Assembly: GCA_020683205.1 (NCBI GenBank)
Contig: CP085689.1
Location: 2,784,230 to 2,848,229 of the forward strand
DNA from: Lentisphaerae bacterium WC36
Lineage (GTDB): Bacteria > Verrucomicrobiota > Lentisphaeria > Victivallales > SZUA-371
DNA: 64,000 nucleotides
Direction: 5' to 3'
The translations under genes were made by a program, and so were the position numbers. How positions within the stretch are numbered: the stretch's first letter is position 1; each line of letters opens with the position of its first letter. Of the stretch, positions 1,617 to 5,115 are shown piece by piece. The notes under the pieces are model-generated. The model worked only from the letters and a program-made list of their open reading frames with translations, had not been told where the DNA came from and made no database searches.

Positions 1617-1664
1617 AAGGGTATTTTTAAGTTTTCCTAAAAATATTAAAGTTAGGAGTTGGGT

Positions 1665-2573
1665 ATGTCGCTATTTAGCACTTTTCAACCACCAATTAGT
1701 TATTCTGAACCATTATTTAGACCGCCAGCTGAGGCAAATAGCTTAATTTTTCAAGTTAGTTATGGCTGTCCACATAATAGTTGTAAATTCTGTATGATGT
1801 ATAAAGATTGTCAATATAAAGTTCGCGAAAAAGAGGCTTTATTCAAAGAAATAAATGCGGTCGCTGACTATTATCAATATACTCCAAAGGCTGTCAAAAG
1901 AATTTTCTTAGCCGATGGCGATGTGATGAATTTACCAACCAAACATTTAGTTGAAATTTTAGAATTATTAAATGAAAAATTTTTAAACCTTAGCCGTATT
2001 GGGATATATGCAAATGCCAGTTCTATTAATAAAAAAAGCGATGAAGAACTTAAAAAATTACGCCATTTGAAATTAACAACTCTTTATACTGGGCTAGAAT
2101 CTGGTACACAATTCATTCTTGATAATGTCGCAAAAGGTGAAACTGTAGAAGAAAATATTACGGCGATTCAGCGCGCTCAAAGTTTCAATTTTAAATGTTC
2201 TGTGATGGTTCTTTTAGGACTAGGCGGTCAAAAATTTTCCGAGCAACACGCATTAGCCACTGCAGAAGCATTAAATAAAATGCAACCGCGCATTTTATCA
2301 GCATTGCGTTATATTGGAGTTGCTCAATCTCCACATCAAAAACTTTATGACGATTATAGTGAAGTATCCGAAAGCGAGGCGTTACGAGAACTATATTTAT
2401 TACTTAAAAATTTAGATTTAAATCAAACAGTATTTTCGGCTAATCATTCCTCCAACCCATTACCAATACAAGGAAGATTGCCAAAAGACAAGAATAATTT
2501 ATTAGCTCAAATAAAAATGTCATTAGATAATAACCTATATCGTCATGAAAAACCGTTTTTTTATCAATTATAA
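1665..2573 (+). CDS. Radical SAM protein
   Basis: About 302 aa. A GCPHNSCKFCMMYK stretch supplies the three cysteines of a radical SAM [4Fe-4S] cluster in CX4CX2C spacing, as in the GCxHNxCxFCxMYK radical SAM family. A GLESGT motif and an LLGLGG strand continue the SAM barrel. The TTG at 1659 is in frame, but TAGGAG (1653-1658) sits directly against it and six bases before the ATG at 1665, which I take as the start. The substrate is unknown. It lies 48 bp after larE on the same strand. A minus-strand frame over its 3' end (2440-2631) is a shadow. Confidence 0.8.
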   Translation: MSLFSTFQPPISYSEPLFRPPAEANSLIFQVSYGCPHNSCKFCMMYKDCQYKVREKEALFKEINAVADYYQYTPKAVKRIFLADGDVMNLPTKHLVEILELLNEKFLNLSRIGIYANASSINKKSDEELKKLRHLKLTTLYTGLESGTQFILDNVAKGETVEENITAIQRAQSFNFKCSVMVLLGLGGQKFSEQHALATAEALNKMQPRILSALRYIGVAQSPHQKLYDDYSEVSESEALRELYLLLKNLDLNQTVFSANHSSNPLPIQGRLPKDKNNLLAQIKMSLDNNLYRHEKPFFYQL

Positions 2574-2703: not shown

Positions 2704-5115
2704 ATGAATGAACTAGAACAATATTTAGCAGAAAACCAACTTTCGACCAAGCCAAAGAATAAATACAAATTTATTCGTTCTCTAGGTCATGGGGGCAGTA
2801 AAAATATTATCCACGTTTTTGATAATGATACATCACGTGGTGTAGCTATGGCAACATTAAGCGATTTTAAAAATCGTACTGAAGAAGAAATTATTGCTTT
2901 TCTGGAAGAAGCGAAAATTAGTGCGATTCTCGAACACCCAAATATTGTACCGGTTCATGATATTGGTCTTGATGATAACGGGGTTCCATATTTTACAATG
3001 AAACGTCTGAAAGGACGCAACTTAACAGAATTGCTTTTTGAAATAAAAACCTATAAACACCGCAAAATTCCTTCAAAATATACGACAACATATATGTTAA
3101 GGATTTTTTCTAAGATTTGTGATGCAGTTTCGTTTGCTCATGACAAAGGTATTGTTCACCTAGATATTAAGCCAAAAAATATTCACTTAGGTGAATTCAG
3201 TGAAGTACAAATCATGGATTGGGGTTTAGCTCGTTTTATCGATCGGAAAGAGAATGCTACTAAAGATGATTTTAGTTTTGCAGCAAAAGAATTAGAACGA
3301 ATGCGCAGTAGCTATGAACACCGCCGAGATTGTAAATGTCCCAATTTAGATGATAATGAATTAGAACAATGTCTCAATATTACTAAAGGTACTCCTGGTT
3401 TTATGGCTCCAGAGCAGCTTAATTATATCAATCCTTCTTTTGACGAACGTACCGATGTTTATGCCCTTGGAGCAATCCTATATTCAATTTTGACAAATTC
3501 CAATCCTATAGAGGGGTCCATCGAAGAAATTATTACAAAAACTTTAACTGGCGATATCCAGCCGCCAAGAAAAAAAGCGCCTGAAAATTTAATTTCTCCT
3601 GCATTAGATGCTATCGCAATGAAAGCCTTAGCATTAAATCCTAAGCATCGTTATGAAGCTGTTGTAGATTTAAAGAGGGATATAAACGCATATTTGTCAG
3701 GTTTTATGACTTCTGCAGAAAAAGCAACTCATACTAGAAAAATTTTACTTTATATCAAAAGAAATTTCACATTAACAGTTATCATGGGAACAATCTTAGT
3801 CTCTTTGACGCTATTTTTAGCAATATTTTTAAGAGATGTCAAAAAAACTCAATACAGCTGGTCACAAATTGCTCGTCAAGATTTTAGCAGTGGTTTTTAT
3901 GATAACAGTGTTTTCAAATTTCGTTCTTCAGATAATAGTAGTGATGTTAATGTTTGGGATGAAGATTCACTGGATGGTTTAAAATGTGTTGAAGACCAGT
4001 GGCTATGGTATAAAAGTTACTATTTACCAACTAATTTAAGAATGGACTTTTCATTCTTCCTTAAAAATGAAGATCTTAATTTAAAAATTGCATTAAATGG
4101 TTTTGATAAAAAAACTAATTCACTTGGCAACCCACTCGGATATTGTGTTAAAATTGATAATATCAATGAAAAATCACATATTTCGTTGGAATTCAGCAAC
4201 ATTTCTCAAACTATTAACCTCAAGAATGCTTATGTATCCTTAGAACGCAATGCTATTAATAAAATTTCAATTTTACGCTTTAGTACAGCTATTATAGTGC
4301 AAATTAATGATGACAATGTTCTCGAGTACCAAAACATCTTGCCATTATCAACGGAGTATTTGAATTCTGCTGGGATTTTACTCAAGAATCATAGTATTAG
4401 TTTAACTGAATTTAAATTATCACGTTTAGAACCGCCAGAACGATCTTCAGCACTGTTAAATGGCGATAGCTTAGCTGATTATGGTTTTTACCGTAAAGCA
4501 ATAGAAGAATACTTAAACTTAGCAAAGTATAACGCTAATCGCACATTAGCTTTTGAGGCTCTAAAAAAAGCATATATTTACAATAGTGTGAATAGTGATA
4601 TCGTTGACCGCCAAAATGTTTTCCATACGATTAAAGACATTAATGATTACCGCCATCTAAACTTTTTTGAAAATTATGATGTCAATCATGTTGAGGCAGT
4701 ATATTTTTGGCGCAACGGCGAATTCAATAAAGCATTGAAAAAAATGCAAGAAATTGTAATAAGAAATCCAGAGTTTAGCTCTTTTAATTCTATTTTAAAC
4801 CAAAATCGCAATAACGATTTACCTATAGAAATTCAAAAAAAGCTAGCTAGAATCATTTCTAAAGCTAAAAGTGTTAATAATTTGAATTTATCAAGTTTAG
4901 GAATTAGTGATTTAACAATTTTTGAAAAACTAAATTTTATTACCAATATTGATTTATCCAATAATAAAATTAAAGACATTAGTGCTTTAAAAGATGTAAA
5001 TTTTGATAATTTGGATATTTCAAATAATTACCTAGGAGCATTATCTAAGGAGGTTTTCGATAGTTTAAATGTTACAAATTTAATTTATCAACCTCAAAAA
5101 CAAGAAGAAGATTAA
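2704..5115 (+). CDS. Membrane-anchored Hanks-type Ser/Thr protein kinase with WNK-like lysine placement and C-terminal LRR
   Basis: 803 aa. The kinase domain spans about residues 22-335: glycine-rich loop LGHGGSKN (27-34), VAMA (47-50), alpha-C Glu in FLEEAKI, HLDIKPKN with catalytic D154, DWG (172-174), and GTPGFMAPEQ. The VAIK lysine is Ala50, while Lys33 in the glycine loop aligns with the catalytic lysine of WNK kinases. The HRD arginine is Leu153. One membrane helix follows (about 353-376). The remaining 430 residues, probably outside the membrane, begin with a beta-rich stretch and end in internalin-like leucine-rich repeats (about 715-795). It heads an operon with DUF58 and transglutaminase genes 3 bp and overlapping downstream, hinting at envelope signalling. 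Confidence 0.9.
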   Translation: MNELEQYLAENQLSTKPKNKYKFIRSLGHGGSKNIIHVFDNDTSRGVAMATLSDFKNRTEEEIIAFLEEAKISAILEHPNIVPVHDIGLDDNGVPYFTMKRLKGRNLTELLFEIKTYKHRKIPSKYTTTYMLRIFSKICDAVSFAHDKGIVHLDIKPKNIHLGEFSEVQIMDWGLARFIDRKENATKDDFSFAAKELERMRSSYEHRRDCKCPNLDDNELEQCLNITKGTPGFMAPEQLNYINPSFDERTDVYALGAILYSILTNSNPIEGSIEEIITKTLTGDIQPPRKKAPENLISPALDAIAMKALALNPKHRYEAVVDLKRDINAYLSGFMTSAEKATHTRKILLYIKRNFTLTVIMGTILVSLTLFLAIFLRDVKKTQYSWSQIARQDFSSGFYDNSVFKFRSSDNSSDVNVWDEDSLDGLKCVEDQWLWYKSYYLPTNLRMDFSFFLKNEDLNLKIALNGFDKKTNSLGNPLGYCVKIDNINEKSHISLEFSNISQTINLKNAYVSLERNAINKISILRFSTAIIVQINDDNVLEYQNILPLSTEYLNSAGILLKNHSISLTEFKLSRLEPPERSSALLNGDSLADYGFYRKAIEEYLNLAKYNANRTLAFEALKKAYIYNSVNSDIVDRQNVFHTIKDINDYRHLNFFENYDVNHVEAVYFWRNGEFNKALKKMQEIVIRNPEFSSFNSILNQNRNNDLPIEIQKKLARIISKAKSVNNLNLSSLGISDLTIFEKLNFITNIDLSNNKIKDISALKDVNFDNLDISNNYLGALSKEVFDSLNVTNLIYQPQKQEED

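Follow-up and report, generated by a model that had tools for sequence, protein, structure and literature searches.

A large clade of bacterial membrane Hanks-type kinases with the nucleotide-binding lysine apparently relocated to the glycine-rich loop, as in WNK kinases

We analyzed a 64,000-nucleotide stretch (the window) of the Lentisphaerae bacterium WC36 genome, which is a single 3.66 Mb contig. The window contains an open reading frame (positions 2704-5115, + strand) for an 803 amino acid membrane Hanks kinase (the window kinase). We consider it fairly probable that this protein is an active receptor-type Ser/Thr kinase, and that it belongs to a large clade of bacterial kinases whose ATP-phosphate lysine has moved from strand beta-3 to position 33 of the glycine-rich loop. 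Alignment supports a WNK-type relocation of the lysine in the window kinase, whose other catalytic residues are all intact, and we infer, on good grounds, that Lys33 is a working substitute that serves nucleotide binding.

Gene extent and domain organization

A sequence-only reading of this DNA had ended the gene at 3720. The frame continues to 5115, and 3720 lies near the end of the kinase domain. The motifs named in that reading all occur at the residues given for them: G28-H-G-G-S-K33-N, V47-A-M-A50, E69, H152-L-D154, D172-W-G, and A235-P-E. The features are:

2704-5115 (+), whole gene, 803 amino acid membrane kinase (open reading frame and translation)
2764-3693 (+), kinase domain, residues 21-330 (Pfam Pkinase, 4e-32; AlphaFold2 model; match to PknB 1mru)
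2785-2805 (+), glycine-rich loop, G28-N34 (translation)
2800-2802 (+), loop lysine K33, aligned with WNK1 K233 (BLASTP; invariant in 89 relatives)
2851-2853 (+), A50 at the beta-3 lysine position, VAMA (clade and sister alignment)
2908-2910 (+), alpha-C glutamate E69 (invariant in the clade)
3157-3165 (+), HLD catalytic motif, HRD with Arg replaced by Leu153, and base D154 (translation and clade alignment)
3184-3186 (+), H161 at the adenine-floor position, polar in the loop-Lys clade and Met in the sisters (clade alignment)
3217-3225 (+), DWG metal-binding motif, residues 172-174 (translation and clade alignment)
3406-3414 (+), APE motif, residues 235-237 (translation and clade alignment)
3766-3831 (+), hydrophobic, probably transmembrane segment, about residues 355-376 (read from the translation)
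3832-5112 (+), C-terminal part, predicted extracytoplasmic, with weak TPR/LRR traces, common to order-level relatives
1659-2573 (+), radical SAM gene upstream of the window kinase, also beside the full-length relative L237
5119-9002 (+), DUF58 and transglutaminase genes directly downstream, a possible operon, context only

The kinase domain matches PF00069 with 112 bits against a cut-off of 31.7. Residues expected of a Hanks-type kinase (Asp154, Asp172, Glu69, and the P+1 Thr230) are all present and are kept clade-wide; Ala50 stands at the usual place of the VAIK lysine, and the lysine is found at loop position 33 instead. The C-terminal part, of about 430 residues, shows only weak TPR and LRR traces and recurs in the closest full-length relatives. 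A related C-terminal part is seen in L229, a kinase with a loop glycine and a beta-3 lysine, and L227, a related protein with a decayed catalytic loop, shares the C-terminal part of the window kinase. The DUF58 and transglutaminase genes were not found beside the loci that we inspected, and their association with the kinase is positional only.

A reciprocal lysine swap

The equivalence of Lys33 to the WNK loop lysine, proposed in the sequence-only reading, is borne out by BLASTP, which puts K33 on K233 and A50 on C250 of WNK1 with no gap between them (the letters of the WNK1 query segment were verified against PDB chains). K233 is the working lysine of WNK1 (PMC12599244). Like WNK kinases, the window kinase lacks a lysine in beta-3 and has one as the sixth residue of the glycine loop. 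The same holds for its two paralogs in the source genome; all three loop-Lys kinases encoded there have a beta-3 alanine.

Relatives drawn from genome collections comprised, after removal of duplicates, 89 loop-Lys kinases (median pairwise identity 42%) and 102 DWG sister kinases without the loop lysine. An alignment of such bacterial kinases had been named earlier as a check, and it shows the swap throughout: the beta-3 residue is Ala in 88 and Val in one of the 89, and the reverse arrangement occurs in 102 of 102 sisters, where beta-3 carries Lys and the loop residue is Gly, Ser, Ala, or Thr, never Lys. No protein in the two sets has both lysines or neither. What had been treated as one odd kinase is thus a large clade with further changes to the pocket (a polar residue 161, mostly Cys at DFG-1, and HLD).

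Two simpler accounts of the swap were rejected. Chance or misalignment does not fit a reciprocal swap in which the stretch from the glycine loop to beta-3 is gapless, and the few apparent exceptions are alignment register shifts. A lone degenerate gene was discarded because of the conservation across the whole clade. The VIA-align list contains no WNK entry, and we attach no meaning to this.

In some loop-Lys kinases the motif reads VAKA, which places a lysine directly ahead of the beta-3 position (L082, L084, L102, L111, L172, L173, L176, L180, and L192).

Origin of the loop lysine

With the three trait columns left out, a FastTree analysis of 208 sequences needs two changes, one for a clade of 88 and one for the odd sequence L203. 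A quick IQ-TREE run on 95 sequences needs five changes, and the run without four long or partial rows needs two. With four long or partial rows excluded, a tree that holds all loop-Lys kinases together has the higher likelihood (p-AU 0.945). These sequence data fit one clade with a single origin, and the 89 sequences are not to be counted as 89 events.

The loop-Lys clade is nested inside bacterial DWG kinases with a beta-3 lysine, in trees that cover bacterial kinases only; this position does not indicate common ancestry with WNK. From the nesting, and from PknB as the best PDB match, we read the likeness to WNK as convergence, in agreement with the independent bacterial origin that had been proposed for the loop lysine. 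The near relative L217 has a beta-3 lysine and a loop glycine and is already HLD, which suggests that the change from HRD to HLD preceded the lysine swap.

In the trees, L203 (loop-Lys) groups with L200 (beta-3 Lys). Both are short or partial rows from Lentisphaera marina, and the grouping may be due to recombination or tree error.

Predicted structure and the nucleotide pocket

AlphaFold2, run on a 31-row alignment, gives a bilobal kinase fold for the kinase domain (mean pLDDT 87.7), and the closest fold is PknB (1mru; Z 31.7, rmsd 1.9 A over 261 residues). In the model, beta-2 (strand 33-40) begins with Lys33 and beta-3 (strand 45-52) includes Ala50, a predicted placement such as the WNK precedent would need. 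A single-sequence model of the C-terminal part was set aside (mean pLDDT 40).

Among the positions that set the clade apart are 153, where Arg gives way to Leu; 161, where Met is replaced by Gln, Arg, His, Asn, or Lys; and 171, where Cys mostly takes the place of Met. The window kinase has His161 and keeps Met171. In the alignment with PknB, positions 161 and 171 fall on two methionines, Met145 and Met155, which we take to line the adenine site from below (compare PKA Leu173), so the pocket appears to be altered at both ends. A polar residue at the adenine floor is unusual for an ATP-binding kinase, and it counts against the reading of the clade as active kinases.

ECF sigma factor neighbors

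At 20 of the 27 loop-Lys loci of the genome_contigs set that could be assessed, the kinase gene adjoins an ECF sigma gene, and these ECF genes form a single homologous group. In ten cases the ECF gene lies upstream in the same orientation, often with an overlap, and in ten it is downstream. Sister kinases have an ECF neighbor at 2 of 49 assessable loci, with weak matches, a contrast that is somewhat biased by the ECF profile having been built from neighbors of loop-Lys kinases. Both paralogs in the source genome adjoin an ECF gene (one upstream, one downstream). The window kinase has no adjacent ECF gene, nor was one seen beside the inspected order-level relatives, and the missing neighbor at the window gene counts against our best explanation.

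Kinase-regulated ECFs are known: in PknT-EcfP and PknS-EcfK a membrane Hanks kinase gene likewise stands beside an ECF gene (PMC8999054, PMC13147305). ECF43 sigma factors are without the acidic DAED motif, and phosphorylation supplies its charge (PMC8999054). In contrast, the aligned ECFs adjacent to clade members keep an acidic DxED/DxDD-like motif, which makes the exact ECF43 mechanism unlikely; the candidates left are phosphorylation at another site or direct binding.

Sulfatase genes were repeatedly seen close to the ECF-kinase pairs (11 loci, including L082, L102, L121, and L137), and these genes may simply be abundant in the genomes. At L239 (1301-4504), clpP and clpX are followed within a few bases by a loop-Lys kinase gene in the same orientation, and L245 has open reading frames similar in size and order.

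Predicted function

Gly30, Lys33, Glu69, Asp154, Lys156, Asn159, and Asp172 are invariant across the 89 loop-Lys kinases, and residue 230 is Thr or Ser in every one. The catalytic and metal-binding aspartates, the loss of which marks pseudokinases with all three catalytic motifs degraded, are kept in 89 of 89. The sequence-only reading had judged the fold not simply dead from Glu69, Asp154, and Asp172, and their strict conservation over 89 relatives strengthens that view. Conservation of the residues for phosphotransfer argues for catalysis with the relocated lysine. Two related proteins with decayed catalytic loops, L227 (NLN, EWG) and L228 (NLD, NWT), have the beta-3 lysine; they indicate that catalytic residues drift once catalysis is lost, which backs this reading of the invariance.

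As an active kinase, the protein would use the glycine-loop residue Lys33, where beta-2 begins, to reach the alpha and beta phosphates and to pair with Glu69, like K233 of WNK1, and it would transfer phosphate to Ser or Thr. HLD makes the clade non-RD, and non-RD kinases are usually independent of activation-loop phosphorylation; the window kinase would probably share this independence. Control of switching would lie with the C-terminal sensor part, and for most clade members the output would likely be the neighboring ECF sigma factor.

The strongest competing explanation, although we think it unlikely, is a nucleotide-binding, catalytically weak pseudokinase, in which ATP, bound by the loop lysine and the metal site, sets the conformation of a binding switch, for example an anti-sigma factor acting on the ECF partner. 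The beta-3 lysine and the HRD arginine are gone and position 161 is polar, the kinase gene sits beside the ECF gene where an anti-sigma gene often is, and ECFs that retain a DAED-like acidic motif should need no phosphate there for polymerase binding. However, Asp154, Lys156, Asn159, and the P+1 Thr/Ser serve phosphotransfer rather than binding, yet they are conserved in 89 of 89. A broader conjecture, which we hold with even less conviction, is that the redesigned pocket (loop lysine, polar residue under the adenine, non-RD loop) yields receptors that are gated by nucleotide, number dozens per genome, and control partner ECFs needing no added phosphate to bind polymerase; these would be kinase-fold anti-sigma receptors or altered-nucleotide kinases.

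We regard as improbable a rebuilt pocket that takes a different nucleotide or pose and makes the protein a non-kinase transferase (compare SelO, in which ATP is flipped to AMPylate). In its favor, the changes specific to the clade (Lys33, Ala50, polar 161, and Cys at DFG-1) are coordinated across the two ends of the pocket, but the motifs for catalysis and metal binding match those of ordinary kinases. Most improbable is the WNK-like ion sensor suggested in the sequence-only reading, in which chloride or another ion would occupy the gap that the beta-3 lysine left and inhibit the kinase: the analogy of the vacated site is all that favors it, the whole group has DWG rather than the WNK DLG that provides the Leu of the chloride site, and Trp173, invariant in the clade and in the beta-3-Lys sisters, occupies the position of WNK1 Leu369, where the L369F mutant is chloride-insensitive (PMC13397483).

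Relation to known kinases

WNK1 and WNK3 resemble the loop-Lys clade in that their working lysine (K233) occupies the same place in the loop and beta-3 has none, with the alpha-C Glu, the catalytic Asp, and the metal Asp kept. They have HRD, DLG, and a hydrophobic adenine floor, whereas the clade has HLD, DWG, and a polar floor; unlike WNK kinases it is also bacterial, membrane-bound, and apparently of separate origin, with no sign of a chloride site. PknB-type kinases are the closest match in sequence and fold, and in them too a membrane segment comes after the cytosolic kinase domain; the clade differs from them in the absent beta-3 lysine, the loop lysine, HLD, and the polar position 161. 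POMK also uses a glycine-loop lysine (PMC12599244). The partner of this lysine in POMK is an acidic residue in a DLD-type motif, and the alpha-C Glu is absent, whereas the clade keeps the alpha-C Glu and DWG. The bacterial pseudokinase families ActPs1-3, GLW, CP1, DYD, and DLHK have an altered VAIK motif as well, but with other catalytic motifs lost or altered, or with the beta-3 lysine changed to Arg; the accessible part of their description (PMC12599244) reports neither a loop lysine nor an origin in these phyla.

No prior description of a bacterial loop-lysine kinase family was found in the literature searched; an earlier mention is possible, as a bacterial Ser/Thr kinase atlas to which PMC12599244 refers lay outside the search. 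A moved catalytic lysine has so far counted as a quirk of WNK and a handful of other eukaryotic kinases. If bacteria hold a second, very large radiation of this type that arose independently, it would mean that evolution can reach such a move and maintain it, and the clade together with its sisters offers natural before-and-after relatives for testing how the lysine moves. WNK kinases also break the VAIK-lysine rule, yet they are active; a missing VAIK is no proof of a dead kinase, and under the usual motif rules all members of the clade would be mislabeled. The ECF neighbors point to a directly testable signaling layer in the Lentisphaerae and Kiritimatiellae relatives.

Distribution and copy number

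Judged by kinase content, the relatives are Lentisphaerae and Kiritimatiellae types, broadly Verrucomicrobiota. A strict DNA pattern (HLD...NIQ), which undercounts since it requires Gln at 161, has matches in 22 of 288 genomes of the phylum. In the phylum of a Planctomycetota relative it matches 1 of 199 genomes, and all seven matching genes have the loop lysine. The viral contigs searched contain no relatives of the window kinase. Lentisphaera marina has 64 profile matches; at least 36 distinct kinases among them were read, all with the swap, and Pontiella sulfatireligans has 25 profile matches. One genome in the Planctomycetota sample (G190) encodes seven loop-Lys kinases (L247-L253), which may reflect gene transfer, misbinning, or misplacement.
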